This document shows, one piece after another, positions 36,546 to 47,690 of a DNA stretch of 64,000 bases (position 1 is the first letter of the stretch; each line of letters starts with the position of its first letter). Under the pieces are notes generated by a model. The model searched no databases. It saw nothing but the letters and a program-made list of their open reading frames with translations, and was not told the origin of the DNA. The translations under genes and the position numbers were made by a program. The DNA comes from Gamsiella multidivaricata (Eukaryota; Mortierellomycota; Mortierellomycetes; Mortierellales; Mortierellaceae): contig NW_026251830.1 of the NCBI RefSeq assembly GCF_025024155.1, positions 1 through 64,000 of the forward strand. Reading direction: 5' to 3'.

Positions 36546-36566
36546 GCTCCCGAGGTGATGTGTTTT

Positions 36567-36715
36567 TTTTTTTTTATTGACGCCAGATCCCCCCAGACGC
36601 GCAGGCGTGCCACAGGCTGCATTGTCCAAGCCTCGGCTTGGACTGCCAGCCGGCCGATAGTTACCGAAAGATAGCTAACAAAAGGCCCCCACTAAACTAA
36701 TGTAAAATGAGGGAC
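36567..36715 (-). mobile_element. Severely 5'-truncated LINE 3' end with target-site duplication
   Basis: On the minus strand this is the last about 135 bases of the same LINE 3' untranslated region that ends at 43242: the stretch from the CATTTTACATTAGTTTAGTG motif to GGCGTCAATAAA and an A-run is shared. It is flanked by an exact repeat, GCTCCCGAGGTGATGTG, at 36546-36562 and 36716-36732, extendable into the T-run. This is direct evidence of target-primed insertion. It lies about 370 bp beyond the stop of the Fanzor frame. Confidence 0.88.
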
Positions 36716-36736: not shown

Positions 36737-37087
36737 GCAAACGCGTTTTGGTCACAAACGCGCCACGTGCCCACAAAAAATTTATTACGCGCCGCAAAAT
36801 GTCAGGGTTTGAAACCCCCTAATAGAGCCAAAAGGGTTGGAGAGCACGACGCGCAAATGCTCACTTATATTGGCCTGTGCGTGACCTTGCAGTTGAAGAA
36901 TGTGTTGAGATACAGACTCTGGTGAACATACGACTACGGTATATGTCTACTGGTTAGAATTCAGAATAGGTTGGATGTTCATGCACGCCATTTTTGCATG
37001 TTGAACTTACAAATTTTAAAAGAAGGCTCCGACCCCCTATGATTATGTTGATGGCATGAACTTGGCAGGCCGGCACTGGTTCTGGAT
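36737..37087. other. 3' flank of the XPG-Fanzor gene
   Basis: Contains repeated AAACGCG motifs near 36740 and 36760 and GGGTTTGAAACCCCC (palindromic GGGTTTGAAACCC) near 36811. If the Fanzor gene is carried by an element, its end could lie here, but I find no matching terminal repeat upstream of 43771. Confidence 0.4.
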
Positions 37088-38731
37088 CTACAACAGACAC
37101 ACGGTGGCAATGTTCTCAGAACCGACAATATCGCGATCAAAGTACATTTGACAGCTTCGGCAGTACTTTGACCGCCTCTTGTCGGACTCCAAGAATGCCA
37201 TACACTGGTCACGAGGGCATCGAGCACTGGCGTAGTACTCGTGCACCCCGACCATAGTGTGTCCCATAGCCTTTGCCTATCAGCAGCGTCAAGGAACAAA
37301 TAAACAGATGAGAAAAAGTTGCAGTGCGGATGAGAGATGGTATACCGCCCTTTTTTTTTTTCTTCTTACCTTGCCGACAAATTTTTTCTCGAGTGCGCTA
37401 TGCTTGCTTGGCAGGCCAGTTTGCGAATCAAAAGAGCCCAATCTTATCGCAAACACCACTTTTACACCATCCTGCGAGCTCAGCGGCTGGCCAACAAAGT
37501 CCTTGCTAACGGCAAGGTCAAGCAAGGCCGCAGCTGCGTAGTCATACATTGCCTGTTGAGCCTTTTGAAGATCCCAGCGCTTCCTTAGCATCCACTGACT
37601 GTTGTAAAAGCTAAAAAGGTGGACTCTCGTGGTGGGCGCGGCGGTGCCATCCGTGCCAGACGCCTCCAGATATTCCTCGATCTTCTCCGCGGCAAATGAG
37701 GGCAGTCTTGCCTCAAGAACATCAATGTGTGCTGCGGCTTTCTGCTTTTCTAGGGGACGCTTGAAGAGCATGTAAGGCCTGTAGAGGAATGCCCTGCGGA
37801 TTCGTAAAGATTCTCTTTTCGTAGGTAAGGCGGGGTCAATTCTTGTCGCTGTCATTGTGTAAACCTCACCCGGGTCAATACCGATGACCACAGTATCGCC
37901 AGGTGGACAAGTACCAGGAGAGTTGAAGCGCACCTCCACCTTTTTTAGAATCTTTGAACTTCGCTTCCAGTTAATGGTGTTGCGTGTGACATCGATCGTA
38001 TCTGCGCCCGACGTTGGACCAGATGAGGCTTGTGAGCTGGATGAGGACGAAGCAGCCGTAGTAGGGTCTGCGGGTGGCAGTTGGTGTATCGGCAGTCTCT
38101 GCCGCTTTGAACTTTCTGGCGTCGAAGATGGGAGCGTGATGCATTTCTCCTTGGCGGGTCCTGCCGCTGCTGCGACCGGATCTGTGCCAGTTTCGTCCCC
38201 TCCACTTTCAAGAAACGCGTCGTCGAGGTCATAGTCACCGTCAACATCGTGGAACAGGGTCAAATCCTCGTCGCCATCGCCCCTGATGCTTTGACGGGGT
38301 GCTCGGCGTCGCGCTGTCGTTGTGTCATGCGCAAGAAGATGCAACACCAGTCCGTTCGTGCAGATGATGTCCCGAAGCTTGAACCTTGTGTGGTGCTGTC
38401 TGTCACTCTGAAGCGAAACCTTCCTGTAATACCCGTCAAAGCGCGTCGCCGGGTCCAGTCTGTATAGCAGCTTCTCGATGAGGATCCCTTCCTTGCCGAC
38501 GATCTTGGCTTCCGCAGTGTGGGCTGCTATATCGCTCAGCAATCGGACTATAATCGGCCGTGTCTTATCGCCTGTATAGAATAAATGGACAAGGTCTGCC
38601 TCTGATAAGAACACGAAGCCAGCTGCAAACTTTGCCTTGACAAAGTGTGCAAACATGCGCTTCTCGGTATTCTTTTCGAAGAAGTAGTCAATCGGATTGA
38701 CAGCTTCGGGGCGCTCTTCGTTCTCGGAAAA
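37088..38731 (-). CDS. Fanzor / TnpB-like RuvC nuclease module with zinc ribbon (C-terminal part)
   Basis: Two exons, 38731-37370 and 37276-37088. RuvC-I: VVIGIDPGEVYTMTATRID, with the catalytic Asp in GIDPG. The central helices read FYNSQWMLRKRWDLQKAQQA, the Fanzor-like 'FYxSxW...KxRWD' pattern. LPSKHSALEKKFVGK, spliced to AKAMGHTMVGVHEYYASARC, leads into the ribbon: CPRDQC (CxxxxC), then YCRSCQMYFDRDIVGSENIA, where CxxC is followed by the RuvC-III Asp in DRD. The Glu just before YYASARC is where Fanzors commonly keep their relocated acidic residue. Stop at 37088-37090. All expected active-site and metal residues are present, so the nuclease half looks intact. Fanzors act in the nucleus with a guide RNA transcribed from the 3' side of the gene, so 36737-37087 is where one would look for it. 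Confidence 0.82.
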
Positions 38732-38823
38732 CTATTAAAGAAATTTGAAGAGCTAATGGTCAACACTAGTGCTCCGAAAAGCAAGGAACATAACGGCTAT
38801 ATCTTGCACACTATCTAATATAC

Positions 38824-39697
38824 CTTTGCCCCATAGTAATGGAATCGCACTGCATTGTAGACTGCCGCAACAGCAAGCCTCGAGACCGTCGAAGGGAACA
38901 TCTCTGGTTCTTGTTGGCGAAAGGGGACAAATCCAGTGAGCGTTATGTACGCATCAAAGGCACGTCGGGCATGGGTGCCTGTTGGTTATGCTTGTGCTTG
39001 TGCCTGTGCTTGCGGTTGCGGGGCACCAGATACCAATGGCGTATTTCGAGTGCTCATCCTGCGCGCAGGGGCAATCGATACTTGAATAGCCTGGGAACCT
39101 CGTCCTTCTTGACCGCTGCACAAGAGTATGTTGAGTGCAAAGTAGAAAGCCTTGCTGTCGAGGATGTCTGCAATGTCCTCCTTCCGCTGTGCCATATCTG
39201 TCGCTATGTCTTTAGAACTAACAAGCCGCGCGATATCCAGTGCAATGGCCTCGTACATATGTATCTGGATCGCGCTAAGGATCGTAACCGCTAAACGTAG
39301 CCTGTCTGAAAGGAGCTTGCTTTCTGCAACCGAGGTCTGATCCATTCGCTTTATGTTGGCCTGGATACTCCCCACAGTGAGTGCCTTGGTTATATGCAGC
39401 TTGCGGAGGCGACGGTCCGCTGCGGTTGCAGAAGTGGGCCTTGGGTTCGATGGGTCGGCGGAGCCCACTCCTTTCCGTTTCCTCGGCAGTGTCCCCTTCT
39501 TCTTCTTTTTCTTGCTCTTCTTCTTCACGACCGCCTTCTGAGCCTTGACGGGGGGTTTTGCTTTTGACTGCGGGCGACCGTGAGATACGGTAGTCGAGAA
39601 GTCAATTGATTGTCGTGGTAGGATCAATTTCTTGTCTGAAAAGATCGGCCGGAACTGGTTGCGCTTTGAGTTCCTCACAACGTAGAAGGGAACCGCA
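38824..39697 (-). CDS. Middle helical/basic region of the fusion gene, with one in-frame TAA
   Basis: Begins AVPFYVVRNSKRNQFRPIF, then a Lys-rich stretch (KKKSKKKKKKGTLPRKRKG) that fits a nuclear signal or nucleic-acid-binding linker. A helical block follows, SIQANIKRMDQTSVAESKLL to SAIQIHMYEAIALDIARLV. It resembles the N-terminal wedge/REC-like helices that precede RuvC in Fanzors, but the match is only by pattern. A Gln-Ala repeat QAQAQAQA leads to TAA at 38986-38988. The frame then resumes as HARRAFDAYITLTGFVPFRQ and RLAVAAVYNAVRFHYYGAK, ending at a splice donor, GTATAT. Continuity on both sides argues for a recent stop mutation or a 48-nt intron (GTGCCC...AACAG) rather than two genes. Confidence 0.65.
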
Positions 39698-39795
39698 CTA
39701 ATAAGTACACGCATGTATCGCCATGCAAAAGGTGTTAGAGAACGTGTTGTTTGTACAGCACGTGCGTGAATGAAGCGGTGTTGCACTTGAATTAC

Positions 39796-40309
39796 CTTCT
39801 ACTCGCATGCTGATATGCAGCGGCGGCAAATCGTTGCACCTTGACGTGCCAGAACTGCGGCAATGCAATGTTGAAATCAAAGCCGAGCATGTCCTCATCG
39901 GCGGCCTCATCTCCTGGCTGCAGTTGAAGCACTTTCTCCTTGAGATCCAAAAAAGTGTCTTCCGATGGCTTGAATCGAGACTGGTCCATAGTCTCGCGGG
40001 GTTTGATGGCTGCCATGAATCTGTAAGCACTGAGCATCTGGCGGATATCGGGCGACTGACGAAGAGCGTGGATGGTCTCCAGGTTGCGAATTATTCCAAG
40101 GCCGGGAATGTTCTCGGTATAGTCATTCTTGGACACGATGCCCAGCAATGTCACATAGTCTGCACTGGGAACCTGACGTGCATTGGTAACACTCTCCTTG
40201 GTGTACAACGCATAGGCCAGGCCGTGGAAGATCGGCCGCAAAACCTTGGTGATCGACGGATATATCAATAGATCGGAATCGGCTGACACCACGAAGTGAC
40301 CGGTTGCCA
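39796..40309 (-). CDS. XPG-I / helix-three-turn-helix part of the fusion gene (partial)
   Basis: Continues the XPG fold beyond the two insertions. HFVVSADSDLLIY gives the paired Asp residues of the active site, and VTLLGIVSKNDYTENIPGLG followed by IIRNLETI is the H3TH DNA-binding motif with its catalytic Asp (NDYT). With the preceding block this completes the XPG set of carboxylates (D, D, E, D, D, D). The block ends YQHASR at a splice donor, GTAATT (39795-39794). Splicing to 39697 gives RSAVPFYVVRNSKRN, in frame with the middle region. Confidence 0.8.
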
Positions 40310-40648
40310 TGGTCAGTGTAAGACTTGTGGGAGAGCGAGGAACAACGAGGTGGAAACGAGGGGAGACGAGTGAACAAGGTGAGTCAACAAAGACGAATGT
40401 ATGAAGACGATTGTTTATTGACTAGACTGTTGTGAGTATATGAACTGGGGTTCAACTACATAGTCTGTCCTTCCTTATATACATCAGACGAATAAAGGTC
40501 CTGATTAGTGATCCATGGTTCTAGACGTTTCGGTGCTGCCTTTGCTCATCTTTACATCATGGAGCTTTCTGTGATGAGGGCGACGTTGATCCTTTCTTAG
40601 ACGCGTCTAGCGTCACATGACAATACCAATCAGAGCTAAACTCTGACA
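40310..40648 (-). mobile_element. Probable solo LTR inserted in the XPG exon
   Basis: 339 bp beginning TGTCAGAG and ending CACTGACCA on the minus strand, so TG...CA with TGTCAG/CTGAC inverted ends. Inside, in LTR order, are a TATATAAG box (about 40480) and an AATAAA signal (about 40413). It sits exactly between the XPG glutamate box and the HFVVSADSD box. Removing it restores one frame. A 5-bp flanking repeat is imperfect (TTGCA/TGGCA), so the call rests on ends, signals and frame. Confidence 0.6.
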
Positions 40649-40666
40649 GTGCAATGCAGGTGTCGG

Positions 40667-43242
40667 CATGCTGACGCTCTCGGCGTCCCTCCGACAGCAC
40701 GGAGCATCATGGACTGGCGCACGCAGCCGTCAGGGGAAATCGCACGAGGATTTGCGAGTGTTGGTCTTTTTTCAACAGATCAGATCATGGGTGAAGGATT
40801 GGAGGTGCGGTCGTGGTCCTTCCTTCGCAAGCAGCAACGAGTCAAAGGGCCATCCAGACAATGGTTTCATGATTTCCAGTCCTGGATCACAGGCGACGAT
40901 CACCGGCGTAGCTTTATCAGCCAGTGGATTGCAGCAGAACGATGCAGGATAGGCGAGTGCGCACACGACTGCCCTCGCTGTGTTGACCAAGTTGTACCCC
41001 CGCCACAACAAGAAATCCTGCGAGAGGTGATAGGGCCCCTCACGGAGACCGAGGACAGACAAGCGAGGCGTACTGCTGAGGATGCTTTGCATACGTACAA
41101 TATCGCGGTCCGACTCAAGGAATATAGACAGCGACAGCGACGTGAAAAATATAATGGCATGGATGAGGACCAGAAGGTACATGAAATGGAAAAAGCAGCA
41201 CTCAAGGACATGGATTCACAGCCAACTACCATTCAGGATGCGGCAGCGCTCGCGTCCTTGGCTCCACCAGCACAAATGATCGATTTCCCATGGGTTGATA
41301 TTGACCAGGAGACATGGCAAACGATCCGTGAGACTCGATGGAGGATCCCGCCTGGGCTGGAGGCAATTGTCCTTTATTCGGATGGATCAGTGAAGAACGC
41401 TGGCTCGGACACAGTCAGCCAATCGTTCGGTAGTGCCTATAGATGCGTCGACGGCTCATTTCAGACGGCTATCTGTGGTACAACGACGGATTACGCATCA
41501 TCCACCAAAGCAGAACTGGTGGGTCTGCTCGCGACAATTCTGTGCTGTCCCCGGGATCGCAACGCCATTATTCATATCGACAATAGAGCAGCGGTCCAAC
41601 AGTTTGCGGCGTTAGTTAAGAATCGACATACAACTACTCCACGACGGCGGTTGAGAGCAGCATATGCCAACTGGTGGGCTGTGATCTACGAGGCGTACGC
41701 GCAGCAGGGCAGCAAAGTAAATGTTCAGTGGGTTAAAGGACACAGTGGCGATACTGGAAATGAGGCCGCCGACGAACTGGCGGACAACGCACACGACAGT
41801 GGGCGACGGCCATGGCAACTGAACACACAATATTTCACGAGCATGAAGACACATACGACTTTCTGTGGTCAGCCAGCGGAGGACGACATTCGACAATTGA
41901 TCAAGCATCAGTCTGCAGCCAGAAACCATCATGCATGGACTTGTCAACAACGAACGAAACAATTTATTCAGCAGTGGGAAGAAGTGGAGTGGCGATCCAG
42001 CCTTGCTATAATACATGAGAAAAATCCGCCAGGGAGTTTTTTCACCAGCCTTGCGGATTGCAACCATCGATCCCACAGGATCAAGAAAATCCATGGTATG
42101 CTGCCAACCATGCAGTACATGCACAGGTGGAAGCCGAATCTGTATACCACAGACAGATGCCAAGTGTGCCTTACCATGGTGGAGGATGCCCAGCACCTCT
42201 GGGTCTGCAGAGTCACACAGAACAGACGACAGGAAGAATGAAGAAAGACACTAGATGGGGTTCTAAGTCTTGGACGCACCTTGGTAGATAAGGCGAGGAA
42301 AAAGTGGTTGTGCGACATGGAGGAGGCAATCAAGGATGGTCGACAATTCACACGCACCGAACCGAGTTTTACCCCGTGCGAGTTAGACACCCTTTGGTGG
42401 AGTCTGCGTGATATCCGGGGAGTGGAAACGATGGTGGATACGCGAGATGATGACTGGATAAGGCTGCTGGAGGAGCGGCGAGACAGGGACAATGGTGGCG
42501 AGGACAGAGAGAATGTCCATGAGGAAGAAGGAGAAGGAGTGAGCAGTCAAGAAAACGTACAGCAGGCAGCACCGCCTACCAGGCTATGGACAACGACAGA
42601 CATATACCACGGGCTCGTACCAAAGTTCCTGACAACGGATTGGGCGCTACTCTTGAAGACGTCGAAGAGCATCGCGGCTTACCTGGTTGGACGTTTTGTA
42701 GAACGAGTTGAGGCTTTTGGCCGAGAGGAGTTATGGAAAGAGCGATGTAGTGCCACAGTGGCATGGGAAAAGTCCGAGGGCATATGCACGAGGATGAAGA
42801 AAGCCGGGGTCCAGGTAGGAGGTGAGGCCCAGGGCTTTGTGAGACAACAGCCCCAAGAGGAGGTTACGACAGCGGCGAGGAGGAGAGCAGACAGCCGCTT
42901 GGTGGACCATCTCCAGGGAAAGGTGGTGTTGAACGAGATGGAGAGAGGAAGGAGGATAAAATTCATATTGGCCCGTGATCTTGACTAGGAGAGGACCCAT
43001 CGGACCCGACAGGTTGCGTAGCGGTTTTGGGCCCCGGCTCAAGTATTAGAAACCATACGACTCAGAATGTGCACCATAGGTATATGGTTCCTCATTTTAC
43101 ATTAGTTTAGTGGGGGCCTCTTGATAGCTATCTTTAGGTAACTATCGGCCGGCTGACAGTCCAAGCCGAGGCTTGGACAATGCAGCCTGTGGCACGCCTG
43201 CACGCCTGGGGGGATCTGGCGTCAATAAAAAAAAAAAAAAAA
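40667..43242 (+). mobile_element. 5'-truncated Tad-like LINE with RNase H, poly-A tail and 18-bp target duplication
   Basis: Insertion flanked by the exact repeat GTGCAATGCAGGTGTCGG at 40649-40666 and 43243-43260. Its open frame runs from the truncated 5' end to 42241. RNase H motifs are intact: LYSDGSVKN, STKAELVGL, IHIDNRAAV and VQWVKGHSGDTGNEAADEL. A zinc knuckle, CQVCLTMVEDAQHLWVC, follows. One in-frame TGA (42239-42241) separates the knuckle from the remaining C-terminal 250 residues (to 42988), which stay in the same frame. A 3' untranslated region follows (42989-43224), shared with the fragment at 36567-36715, ending GGCGTCAATAAA(A)n. The RT domain was lost by 5' truncation. The open frames and clean duplication suggest a young insertion. 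Confidence 0.92.
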
Positions 43243-43771
43243 GTGCAATGCAGGTGTCGGCCTCGGTCCTGCAAGTGCAGACATAAAACCCTTTTTCTTG
43301 TAAGGCATCCCGGAGTGTCAGCTTGGCAGCCTTATCAAATCTATATAAATCACGGAGGCCCTTCTTGATCTTCGTTACCACGCTCTTCGAGGTCCATTGG
43401 CGGTTCGACGACTTCGTGCTCATGACTTTCAAGTTCGCCTGCAACTTCTTGAAGTCCGCTGTCAGTCTGTTCTTTCGCCTGATGTGCTCGCTCCGCTTCT
43501 GCTGTGATGGCTTCTGCTGGGATGGAGCACCATCGATGTGAATCGTACATTGCGCAAGGGTAAAGTCCTTTGCCAAATGCGCTGCCACTGCGAGACCGAC
43601 AGTTCGGACCTTGCTTGGGTCGTAATCATCCGTGATCTGGCGAACGAGGGATCCATAAAACGCGCCGAAGAGGTCAACCTCAATAGCTTGGTTCTGGTAA
43701 TCTTGAGGATCCGCGGCAACTGGATCCAAACCGCGCTTCTTCAGAGTACTGTAAAAGCCTCTTATGCCCAT
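43243..43771 (-). CDS. XPG N-terminal region of the fusion gene (partial)
   Basis: Starts MGIRGFYSTLKKRGLDP, the hallmark beginning of XPG/FEN1/Mkt1-type nucleases, where the N-terminal Gly contacts DNA. AIEVDLFGAFYGSLVRQ supplies the first catalytic Asp, and CTIHIDGAPSQQKPSQQKRS the second Asp followed by the basic helical-arch region. The part ends at CRTEADTCIA, the XPG-I glutamate box, where the LINE target duplication begins. In sequence the open frame runs on into the LINE poly-A to 43142; that tail is not part of the protein. It lacks the usual FEN1 sequence signature and is highly diverged, so it is not the host FEN1. Confidence 0.82.
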
Positions 43772-45461
43772 GCTGTGATCACTATGGTGGGTTGATAGCT
43801 TAGCAGTGTTAGTGAAGCTCTCTCGTAAGGACGCTGAAGATATGGAAGGATAGGCTTGGAGGGTACATTACCTTTTCTACAGACGTATGGTATCTAGTGT
43901 GAAGGTGTATATGGATGGCGAACTGCGGGCGAAGAGCGATGAGGAGAAAGGATGATGAACGAAAGGTAGAAAAAGGTAGGAAAAGGTGCGAGAAGATGGT
44001 TGTGAACTGTGTGGCAGGCTGAAAAGGTGAAAGAAAAGTGTGGCGAAGAGAACTGTGAAGTGTGTGGCAGAATACTTATAGGCGAGAAGCAATATCTGCT
44101 TTCCACAATAAAAAAGGATTTACCACAATAAAAAAAGGCTTTACTACAATAAAAAAAGGCTTTACTACAATAAAAAATGGCTTTACTACAATAAAAAAAG
44201 GCTTTACCACAATAAAAAATGCTTTGATAAAGAGCCATCGCACTGATGGATGTTGGTTGCTTGACACGAAGCGCGATCAGTGTTGTACAAGTAGCTTTGC
44301 CACGGCCTGACACAGATGTTCACCCACATCGCCATCATCGCTGTTTCCAACGTACGCGAGGCAGGCGCAAATCCAGATAGGTCGCTAGGGATGCAATGGA
44401 GGGTAGGGAAACCAGTCAGGTAGTGCGGTCAACCTTCAAAGTTTGAAGGACTAAAGCCTATGGAAACTTTTGCTCGATGGTGGTCTGGGATTGTGATATG
44501 GTAAACTTGAATCATTTAGCTGGTCTCGTAAAATTGCTATTAAATTACGGGGAAAAGCATCGCCCCAGAATAAAAGAATAAACGGTCTGGTTCGAACCAG
44601 TTTCTTCTTCACATATATATCTTGTATCGCATCTTGCATTCGTCCAGATTGTCCGGGTAACACCGCATTATCGACAGGTATTGACTACCGTCGTCAGCAA
44701 CCCACACAACGAGATACAATCAACAGGGACTGCCAAGCTTGATTATTCGCCACCTTTGCACTGTCAATTGCAACGTTTCCCCGACCCCCCGTCGTCTCAT
44801 TGAGCATCCGTCATCGGCGTACCATCGTCAAACGGCATTATCCCTTACTCTGTAAACCGGGCAAAAATGTGGTCTAAATTTATACGTGAATAGTACGAAA
44901 ACACCTTTCTCTCCTTATTTACAAAAAAAAACATTGATGTTGACCCCCCTCCCCCCTGTTAACATGAAAAAGAGAAACTAGACGGAGATCGTTATCGACA
45001 TCTACTTTTTTCCCCATCCCTTCATCATTCGCATTAAGTGGATGCAACAATGAAAAATGTCTCATCAATTCAGACGCCTCCCACTCATTCAAGCGTGGGA
45101 TTAGTGACAATGTTGTCGGAACCCACAAAAAACAAAGATGGGCAAATTCCTCATTCTGATCCCTCTCTTTTGCACTCAGAAGTGATAACAGAGGGCAAAT
45201 ATCGTGAATAAGAGAGGTTAAGGAGCAACCTTCATAAATAAAATTGTCTCCAAAAATGCCCCATTTAGCTAAACAGATCCTCATATTTATTTCCTTCCAT
45301 TTTCGTCTAGTTTATTTTACTTTTGTGTTAATACATTCCGATCTAAAGGACCCTGCACAGCGAACCAGTAAGTGACCGAAGCACGCCCTCGCCGAAGTCC
45401 TATTCGCGTGATATCTTCTATTGTAAATAGAACTAACTAGCAGAACTGCGCGTGGCATACG
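43772..45461. other. Upstream flank of the XPG-Fanzor gene and Helitron 3' side
   Basis: No supportable gene. It contains the minisatellite at 44103-44226 and small palindromes CTTCAAAGTTTGAAG (near 44433) and CTGGTTCGAACCAG (near 44590). No terminal repeat matching the 3' flank of the fusion gene was found by eye. Confidence 0.4.
44103..44226. repeat. Minisatellite of about 20-bp units upstream of the fusion gene
   Basis: Six imperfect tandem units of the type CAATAAAAAAAGGCTTTACTA, differing in A-run length and at CCA/CTA. Located 330-460 bp upstream of the XPG-Fanzor start codon on the minus strand, where the units read as TTTTTTTATTG with AAAGCC. Confidence 0.9.
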
Positions 45462-47690
45462 TCACGGGTCCGAGACGAAAAATCCATTTTCGACCAAAAC
45501 CTTGAGGTTGTCTCGGTGTTTGCAACGCGAGAAGCTGACATACAGCTGCCCGGCGCCAAAGTCGTGCTGAGGAAGGTAAACACCAACGTGGTCAAGTGTT
45601 TGTCCTCGCGCCTTGTTAATGGTCATGGCAAACGCAGGCTTGACAAGAAACTGGATCCTAATGAACTTGATTGGCGTAGATCCGTCGCCCAGGGTTGTGA
45701 GAGGTATGTGCGGAATAAGCACCGTTCGATTCTTGAAGTCACCCTTAAGAATCCCGGCATTGATGTATTTCCGATGGAGTGCTCGAACAATCAGACGGGC
45801 CCCATTGCAGAGACCGGATTTGCCGTCCATGGTTCGAAGGAGAATGATAGGCTGGTCCACCTTTAACAGCAACTCGTGGGGAGGCATACCTGGAGGATTG
45901 AGAGAATCCAGGTATTCTACAGGATACGCGGCGCCGTTGACATCATCCGCTACTTTATCCTGGCTGCGGTAAACCTGTCTCTCCCCTTGACCCCCACTAA
46001 AAACCATCTGGGTTGCCATGGCATTGACTCTGTCAACGTTGGCATTCAGTGTCGTCAGTATAGCCCGACCTTCCAAAAGGGCTGGCTGCAAGGGGGCGGT
46101 CTCACTGTCGAGGTAAATCTCCCTGATGAACTGCTTTTCGGGAGGGTTGTCCTTGGTGACGGGGCCGGGTGGGTTGAAGACAAACTGGTCTGGAATCATG
46201 ACCAAATCATCGTAGAGTCCTGGAGTCACTGTTGACTCCGTGCCATTGCCAATGTTGAGCAGCCATTGTGCAAAAGGCTGGTTGAGCGGATATCCCCCTA
46301 CTCGCATGTTCTCTCTAAGGGACAATGTCTGTACGTGCGACCAGATCTTTCGAAAGCTCTTGAAGCAGGCATCTTCGATTTGGCTAAGGATTCTTCGAGG
46401 TACTACAGGCAAGACTTGAAGAAAGTCTCCTCCAAACACAATGACTTTGCCACCAAATGGGATGGTTAGCTTCCGCATGATGTCTCGGAATGTGGCATCC
46501 ATTACTTCGAGGATATGTCGGTGGTGCATCGGCGCCTCCTCTCAAAAGATGGCTTCTGCTTTTTGAATCCTTTTTGCCATTCTTGACTCCACAGGAATAC
46601 TGCACGTTGAGCTTTCCATGATCTGGAACGGGATTTTGAAAGTCGAGCGGGCTGCGTGACTTCCTGTCAGGACCTGAGCAGCAATTCCACATGAGGGCAA
46701 CTACGATCACGTCCTTCTCGCGCCTTCCTCGAATGCAGGCAATCAAAATGTTGCACAAAAAAGACTTGCCCGTCCTTCATGGTCTATCAATAAAGAACAT
46801 CTTTATCGCACCTTCGTCCTTGTTACCCAGCGCTGCTGTGATTGCAGCGTACAGCGCCTATTGATCGTCGTTGCAGAGGTCCAAGTCATGAGCCGCCTTA
46901 GTTGCAAGTGCCTCAGTGTCGATTTCTGCATATTATCCAAGCTCGTCATTGTTGGGTTGGCGATTGATGAGGTTGCGAAAGTCTCGAGGCATCTCTTTGT
47001 ATACAGCCAGACTGGTCCCAGCTCCTTTCAAAACCCTGTTGACGTGAAACAGTGCAGTACTCCTGGCGTCCTCTTCACCGTTCGGGCGATCCCCAGCATG
47101 ATACAGAGAACCCTCAGGAAGGTCTTTGGCAAAAGCTTGCCACAGTTCAAGAGGGTTGGACGGGCTGCAAAGATGCAAAATCATGGTAAAAAGACATCGC
47201 AACGCCGCCGGACTTTGGTGACCTGCAGCCTCCTCAGGGCATCGGCGCCATTCTAAACCATCCTCCAGCAACCCACGCGCATTGGCGGCCCCCCAGTAAG
47301 TGGCGTAAATCTCTCCTGTGTACAGGTTCTTGCGAAGATTTTTGGAACTGGTTGCTCCTCTAACGTGCTAACGTGCAGGAGCAAAAGGCGTAAGCAGTAC
47401 CGACCGCGATCGACTTTATTCGCGAAGTTCGGGGTCGCATAGTGCAGTCAGCCGATAGTATTCGAGACTCCGTTTCATCTGGCGATCCAAGCATGACCGC
47501 TATTACCCCATGTGTAGTGCTTGGAGATCTCGGAGTAGAAGCACTGTCTGGCCTCCGAATGGCACCTGTTCAACTTAAACCATGCCATGAGGCTCGTACC
47601 GTTGTTTCTTTCCTCCAATATTGTCGCTGGAGGCTGCCGACCGTTGAAAATAATATTGTGCCTGTCCTCAACGTGAACCTGCAATCGTAC
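45462..47690 (-). pseudogene. Decayed Helitron Pif1-like helicase
   Basis: The best-preserved piece, 46529-45462 (355 aa), has VIVFGGDFLQVLPVVP (motif III-like), LSLRENMRVG, GRAILTTLNANVDRVN, QPIILLRTMDGKSGLCNGAR and FAMTINKARGQTLDHVGVYL, ending in LYVSFSRCKHRDNLKVLV. These are the typical C-terminal motifs of eukaryotic Helitron helicases. Upstream on the same strand the Walker A region reads MFFIDRP-stop-RTGKSFL, with TGA at 46777-46779 where a Gly belongs. The DEAPM box (here EEAPM) is preceded by a stop and frameshift near 46540. Further pieces at 46933-47271 and 47475-47684 (LTAWF-like SLMAWFKLNRC, HYTW) match the region between Rep and helicase. The Rep (HUH) domain is not seen. Inactive. 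Confidence 0.85.

Follow-up and report, generated by a model that had tools for sequence, protein, structure and literature searches.

Most Fanzor1 (Fz1) proteins comprise 600–700 aa (PMC11423790), what Fanzors do biologically is still an open question (PMC10432273), and they are recognized by a DPG at RuvC-I together with a glutamate that precedes the zinc ribbon by six residues (PMC10711439). In the window analysed here, a 64,000-nucleotide stretch of the Gamsiella multidivaricata genome, an initial annotation had proposed an XPG/FEN1-like nuclease fused in frame to a Fanzor. Our analysis leaves hardly any doubt that Mortierellaceae-like fungi harbour a mobile, multi-copy gene family whose product is one protein with an N-terminal 5′-nuclease and a C-terminal Fanzor. 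A literature search conducted without most subscription papers returned no report linking Fanzor to XPG, no Fanzor report for Mortierellomycota, no TnpB report for Mortierella, and no Mortierella XPG-transposon report; the one match for TnpB with XPG concerned Cas12a.

Gene structure and decay of the window copy

As read from the window frames, the gene starts at 43771 on the minus strand with the N-terminus MGIRGFYSTLKKRG, and XPG boxes followed by Fanzor boxes lie along one frame, in the order originally claimed. The first part of exon 1 (43244..43771) runs from the start codon to the EAD box of an XPG/FEN1/EXO1-type nuclease, as indicated by the frame, the spliced model, and a PDB profile match to RAD2/XPG/FEN1, and the second part (39796..40319) encodes the SADSD and NDYT boxes, the H3TH region, and the end of the nuclease domain (spliced model, homology searches). 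Behind intron 1 (39698..39795), exon 2 (38824..39697, spliced model) contributes a basic linker and a helical region towards the Fanzor part. Intron 2 (38732..38823) is followed by exon 3 (37370..38731), the Fanzor core with RuvC-I (IDPGE; spliced model, motif test), and intron 3 (37277..37369) by exon 4 (37088..37276), in which Pfam and the family alignment place the TNB zinc ribbon, the alternative RuvC-II glutamate (HEYYASARC), and RuvC-III (DRD). The three in-frame introns of the initial annotation are borne out: all are GT-AG introns on the minus strand, found in the spliced model and the family alignment, they join 43771-43244 + 40319-39796, 39697-38824, 38731-37370, and 37276-37091 into one frame, and at their donor and acceptor sites, 10 to 12 of the 12 family copies in the alignment keep the dinucleotide.

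The initial count of 3,468 nt (1,156 codons) had to be corrected. The spliced model comprises 1,158 residues, its reading frame is interrupted by a stop at codon 588 in exon 2 (38988-38986), and its C-terminus at the exon 4 stop is about 16 residues short compared with relatives; the window thus holds a broken copy of the gene. An intact window gene was rejected on the grounds of this stop and of the state of the family, in which all 12 aligned copies are broken, with the first stop between codon 2 and codon 761, and no open copy was found.

Two adjoining insertions interrupt the XPG exon, as previously described, and none of the 11 further copies that carry both halves has them. Together (40320..43243, no strand assigned) they comprise a poly-A-ended retroelement piece, whose plus-strand ORF reads as RNase H-like, beside a 320-bp repeat (about 40326-40645) with 35 genome matches, window included. 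A 20-base duplication, GCCGACACCTGCATTGCACT, recorded for this insertion, was read directly in the window sequence.

A mobile family with a common 3′ terminus

Comparison of copies delimits a stretch (36942..45445, minus strand) common to other members of the window's mobile family. The window copy ends in ...ATACCGTA and most other copies in ATACTGTA; a sharp 3′ terminus is shared by 12 of 15 compared sequences, and three copies exceed the window copy on the 5′ side by about 1 kb. With 12 loci carrying both the XPG and the Fanzor half in the genome search and a common 3′ terminus, the Fanzor is carried by a mobile element. In the frame list of the window, no further frame >170 aa lies between 45445 and 36942 outside the insertion. 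No convincing terminal inverted repeats or target-site duplications were found in five extended copies of this family, nor at the element ends of a second family.

The identity of the 3′ noncoding region (0.883 over 927 gap-rich alignment columns) does not exceed that of the introns (0.917–0.947) and so does not speak for a specially conserved omega-RNA in this region; folding the element 3′ end as a single sequence showed nothing specific. In the 12-row family alignment (without the partial copies C93, C50, and C25), dN/dS in the XPG exon is 0.48, matching the low values of the Fanzor exons, on a codon grid taken from the window since the majority frame of the family is broken in a repeat tract; on this grid, decayed copies shift values towards 1.

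The XPG half

The boxes IEVD, HIDG, EAD, SADSD, and NDYT are present in the order first reported. In the exons of the window copy, Pfam detected no XPG domain, and in P0001–P0005 none above cut-off; among seven relatives scanned, XPG_I was above cut-off only in P0016 and P0028 and below it in P0021 and P0018, with no XPG match in P0013, P0046, and P0032. As Pfam alone did not suffice to recognize this domain in the window exons and most relatives scanned, profiles and structure were needed. A profile built from alignment A2 matched XPG/RAD2/FEN1 entries of the PDB (best E 1.5e-11), and the structure model has the XPG/FEN1/EXO1 fold, with EXO1- and FEN1-DNA complexes among the best fold matches, at an identity to EXO1/FEN1/XPG structures of only 14–19%. 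These profile and fold matches led us to reject chance motifs as the source of the XPG label.

The seven active-site carboxylates and two basic residues of the superfamily are conserved in alignment A4 (56 rows, 27 of 83 proteins excluded; gaps in 1 to 25 of the 56 rows at active-site columns). The D179 equivalent is altered in 5 of 47 non-gap rows, whereas each of the remaining six carboxylates is missing from at most one non-gap row; the two basic residues, the counterparts of FEN1 K93 and R100, are kept in all non-gap rows at the same spacing. Within the window family, 10–12 of 12 rows retain the carboxylates.

The Fanzor half

The GIDPG motif, the zinc ribbon, and the continuation into a Fanzor RuvC domain were confirmed. 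TNB (PF07282) is above the Pfam cut-off on exon 4 (E 7.5e-8), the four cysteines of the C4 zinc ribbon are conserved in 11–12 of 12 family copies, and a profile match (E 3.4e-5) links this half to L79, a protein of mimivirus origin. The window model contains both the DPG and the alternative glutamate, with relaxed zinc spacing. Among 83 relatives, 11 have both and 30 more have the glutamate with another residue at P, so that most of the wider family lacks the P; in A4, RuvC-I is mostly D-L-G instead of D-P-G, and the alternative glutamate is found in 41 of 44 non-gap rows.

Structure prediction, one of the checks proposed initially, yielded a confident model that matches EXO1/FEN1 and Fanzor in one chain; an earlier AlphaFold model of P0001, built on 8 sequences, reached only a pLDDT of 58.6 and was set aside. 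The predicted structure has the Fanzor fold (REC/WED/RuvC/TNB). Single superpositions of the whole AF2 model in Foldseek were loose (rmsd 9–20 Å, target TM 0.39–0.55 for Fanzors), and the model, predicted without nucleic acid, gives little information on the relative placement of the two domains.

Fusion of both nucleases in related fungi

With all aligned copies of the window family broken, the case for the fusion is made by further families and species, in which full-length fused proteins, the intact homologues originally sought, are present. Thus, the two-nuclease design looks real despite the broken window copy. We collected 83 relative proteins (24 named 'partial'), and a profile search found both domains in 36 of them, with an XPG match of <170 residues in 9; the seed of the XPG HMM contains parts of P0001 and P0002. 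Proteins with both domains measure 912–1,502 aa, mostly 1,000–1,500. Their domain order is virtually certain: an EXO1/FEN1/XPG-type 5′-nuclease at about residues 1–300, a basic and helical linker, and the C-terminal Fanzor. The presence of both in one protein is upheld by the profiles (the similarity searched for was found for both halves), Pfam in two relatives, the one-chain structure model, genome-wide pairing, co-divergence, and the conservation of both active sites.

Genome-wide, 57 of 109 TNB matches lack an XPG match at 1.5–6 kb; at least 3 of them run into contig ends, and the remainder may be XPG-less or too divergent. Conversely, for 48 of 101 XPG loci, the 6 kb downstream contain no TNB match. 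The count pooled all 24 matches of a first search, 101 of 102 of a second (a long host-like XPG gene on C16 was excluded), and the new places from two further searches (13 of 115 and 3 of 64); only pairs at least 1.5 kb apart were counted. Two viral-contig scans and one GTDB genome scan gave 49, 56, and 31 pattern matches, and subsequent tblastn identified no fusion relative in prokaryotic (GTDB) or viral contigs, a search that distant relatives could escape.

Alternative readings and a possible function

The initial annotation had named separate genes with their own stop and start codons near 38986-39697 as the outcome contrary to a fusion. It is very improbable that gene predictors merged an XPG-like nuclease gene with an adjacent Fanzor gene of the same mobile element, even though the unspliced XPG frame of the window family meets a TAA within the donor of intron 1 and the frame of exon 2 stays open across intron 1 on its upstream side, with a Met. 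The stop at 38988-38986 is a defect of the window copy; full-length relatives read straight through the junction, and their alignment has conserved residues on both sides and no conserved Met. In addition, the intron 1 donor GT is conserved in 12/12 copies and the acceptor AG in 10/12, only 98 bases apart, NCBI gene models in several genera show the fusion, and P0007 (lgn source, 4,910-base contig, 1,183 aa) is probably one uninterrupted frame. We give equally little credence to an inactive, DNA-holding XPG module: the changes at the D179 equivalent would fit it, but the other six carboxylates and both basic residues are maintained, and dN/dS is low in both halves.

Two further readings concern the substrate of an active XPG half, and both seem unlikely. 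Some nucleases or nuclease-like proteins with XPG/PIN-type folds have RNA as their substrate, and a Fanzor's omega-RNA, which overlaps the 3′ region of the Fanzor itself, requires defined ends; a PIN-like nuclease could thus trim omega-RNA or the element transcript and leave target DNA untouched. Against this stand the retained DNA-branch residues of FEN1/EXO1 and the DNA complexes among the best fold matches. Alternatively, the XPG half could be a transposition nuclease for excision or joining at element ends, merely kept together with a Fanzor in its usual role, which would be in line with the sharp common 3′ terminus and the lack of another long frame in the window copy. However, the three copies reaching further 5′ may hold further genes, a transposase may act in trans, and no 5′-nuclease is known to be an established transposase.

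Taken as a whole, a two-nuclease protein whose XPG half serves the guided cut is the best explanation, and we consider it probable; processing by the XPG half of the very DNA that the Fanzor half has cut is slightly favoured. The Fanzor half, loaded with omega-RNA from the element's 3′ end, would open an R-loop at an empty site and cut. The fused 5′-nuclease could then attack the kinds of sites typical of its superfamily, namely the displaced strand at its 5′ flap or the R-loop at its 3′ flank, together with the 5′ ends left by the break, turning a ligatable cut into trimmed or resected, 3′-tailed ends. Such ends would favour repair from the element-bearing chromosome and, thereby, homing or retention of the element. 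The chances are about even that the protein is a natural RNA-guided cut-and-resect enzyme in this full sense, from guided break through R-loop flap processing and 5′ resection to a commitment to homologous copying of the element. Fanzor ends vary among proteins: in one published study, NlovFz2 leaves blunt ends and MmeFz2 leaves 3′ overhangs, so that a 5′ overhang for the XPG-Fanzor protein is an assumption.

If true, this would, to our knowledge, be the first guided nuclease naturally fused to a 5′ DNA-end processor, found across many genera of one fungal family, and the fused enzyme would hint directly at the element's gain, namely break repair or homing. Engineers couple guided nucleases to end-processing enzymes to steer repair; evolution seems to have made the same pairing, with both sites kept in many species. 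The Fanzor architecture thus appears more modular than published structures suggest, and the full-length relatives open this natural two-nuclease design to laboratory testing.

Comparison with known systems

Compared with the EXO1, FEN1, and XPG (RAD2) 5′-nucleases, the XPG half is mobile-element-borne, fused to a guided nuclease, and distant (14–19% identity). No XPG domain is known in TnpB of IS607 or in Fanzor2. The Fanzor half resembles TnpB of IS607 and Fanzor2 (L79) in its RuvC-TNB with the alternative glutamate, as described in PMC10711439. In contrast to Fanzor1 (SpuFz1, GtFz1, and PpFz1; Saito 2023, PMC10432273, and Xu 2024, PMC11423790), the fusion proteins are longer (912–1,502 aa), carry an extra N-terminal nuclease, and in most of the family have D-L-G instead of D-P-G at RuvC-I.

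Gene model and coding constraint

The minus-strand frame opens at 43771, beginning MGIRGFYSTLKKRG, and the spliced model joins the two parts of exon 1 (43771-43244 and 40319-39796) to exon 2 (39697-38824), exon 3 (38731-37370), and exon 4 (37276-37091). Read through, these five blocks encode 1,158 residues; the nuclease exon accounts for the first 350, and the rest is linker and Fanzor. The in-frame XPG-Fanzor join proposed in the initial annotation is borne out, as one frame runs through all spliced blocks. The window copy is a broken gene: its XPG exon carries an insertion, codon 588 is an in-frame stop, and the frame closes approximately 16 residues early. All 12 aligned copies of the family, the window copy and 11 more that have both halves, are broken, the first stop falling between codons 2 and 761. 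At each of the three introns, the donor and acceptor sites persist in 10 to 12 of the 12 copies, over which dN/dS is 0.48 for XPG, 0.53 for exon 2, 0.50 for exon 3, and 0.56 for exon 4. As decay of the copies shifts dN/dS towards 1, these values indicate a constrained shared history, about equally so in both halves. The catalytic positions of XPG and RuvC are conserved in 10-12 of the 12 rows. The family is coding and not a chance product.

The two nuclease halves

An XPG/FEN1/EXO1-type nuclease makes up the N-terminal half. A profile of this domain, built from nine sequences (two relatives and seven translations from the G. multidivaricata genome), matched only 5'-nucleases of this superfamily in the PDB down to E 0.1, namely an XPG/FEN1 chimera (1.5e-11), RAD2 (2.9e-11), FEN1 (1.5e-10), EXO1 (1.5e-5), and GEN1 (0.009), confirming the XPG similarity expected from the first reading. 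The Pfam XPG_I domain scored above cut-off in two of seven relatives in one scan (P0016 and P0028), and not in P0001-P0005 or the window's own exons. In the non-gap rows of 56 aligned relatives, the seven XPG carboxylates are conserved in 30/31, 40/40, 46/46, 47/47, 42/47, 48/48, and 48/48 sequences. Two basic residues, which we take to be equivalent to FEN1 K93 and R100, are conserved in 41/41 rows each and spaced seven residues apart, as in FEN1.

The other half, at the C-terminus, is a Fanzor. Exon 4 scores above the Pfam cut-off for the zinc-ribbon domain TNB (PF07282), and the window model matches, with zinc spacing relaxed in the search, the Fanzor fingerprint described in PMC10711439, in which RuvC-I reads DPG and a glutamate stands six residues ahead of the zinc ribbon. 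This glutamate is conserved in 41 of 44 rows of aligned relatives. RuvC-I reads D-L-G in 34 of 55 relatives and D-P-G in only 8, and the window clade is therefore the more typical Fanzor.

Genome-wide pairing

The pairing of XPG and TNB is genome-wide. In the 37.5 Mb searched (180 contigs), we found 109 TNB matches and, after merging the matches from four queries, 101 XPG loci. For 52 of the TNB matches, the same strand carries an XPG locus 1.5-6 kb upstream (2.7-3.4 kb in 42 of these pairs), compared with four placements downstream and five on the opposite strand. The three unpaired TNB copies inspected (C12, C33, and C121) each run off a contig end, and 48 of the 101 XPG loci are unpaired as well. 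The same exon order was found in both divergent families read through (C98 and C24/C19). The divergent family on contigs C24, C19, C113, and C134 (loci L072, L083-L085) additionally has an alanine/serine/threonine-rich stretch and a candidate intron within the nuclease domain.

Element ends and the insertion

Similarity to other element copies extends from window position 45445 to 36942. The 3' terminus, ATACTGTA or ATACCGTA, is common to 12 of 15 compared sequences, and the flanks past it are unlike among copies, except that C139 and C171 have theirs in common. Three copies reach about 1 kb further 5' than the window copy. Neither inverted repeats nor target-site duplications were established in the extended copies compared, and no element class was assigned. 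Directly upstream of the common stretch, a 359-aa open frame (45462-46541, minus strand) resembles, by sequence reading, the C-terminal part of a putative PIF1-type (Helitron-like) helicase; eight compared copies have different sequence at this position. In another XPG-Fanzor family, the copies at C98:64208, C93:972473, and C140:232641 (loci L080, L086-L088) have an identical 3' end that includes a hairpin-like stretch; on its 5' side, the C98:64208 copy breaks off abruptly within the coding region. This sharp 3' end and 5' truncation hint at an unusual way of moving.

The insertion (43243-40320) interrupts the XPG exon, where other family copies go from 43243 directly to 40319. One component is a retroelement piece ending in poly-A, with a putative RNase H-like frame (labelled from its sequence) and bordered by the 20-base duplication GCCGACACCTGCATTGCACT. 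Its 3' end occurs twice, at 43066-43242 (plus strand) and, just past the 3' end of the XPG-Fanzor element, at 36563-36715 (minus strand), both similar to one flank of the C93:1033 copy. The other component is a 320-bp repeat (40326-40645, minus strand) with 35 genomic matches, counting the window and some split copies. At eight further sites (C134, C19, C118, C126, C97, C131, C111, and C146), the repeat is found in the opposite orientation, approximately 180-560 bp (calculated by hand) upstream of where XPG begins in another XPG-Fanzor family. Possibly it is a terminal piece that carries a promoter, or else a small element of separate origin absorbed into that family.

Possible function and comparison with known systems

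One element-borne protein combines two nuclease folds, and the active sites of both are conserved. The substrates of EXO1 and FEN1 are 5' ends and flaps. In the most likely mechanism, the displaced strand of the R-loop made by the Fanzor half would present the XPG half with a flank or flap, and the Fanzor cut would supply 5' ends. The XPG half would then trim or resect them, which would block simple re-ligation, and the processed break would favour homologous copying of the element, a role proposed for TnpB in the discussion of PMC10432273. In the same paper, Fanzors are described as cutting under omega-RNA (guide RNA) direction, SpuFz1 leaving 5' overhangs and others blunt ends or 3' overhangs; purified XPG was reported to cleave the R-loop 3' flank (Tian and Alt 2000, as related in PMC7286691).

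The XPG half could instead process RNA, which seems unlikely, or act as a transposition nuclease, to which we give the same low probability. That it is an inactive module is very improbable. Equally remote is the reading of XPG and Fanzor as two separate gene products.

Our keyword searches of the literature found no paper describing an XPG-Fanzor fusion, and protein databases hold it as hypothetical proteins, some named for one or other domain. The fusion is a new combination of known kinds, and most of the aligned XPG-Fanzor proteins, with D-L-G and the alternative glutamate, blend TnpB-like and Fanzor-like signatures.
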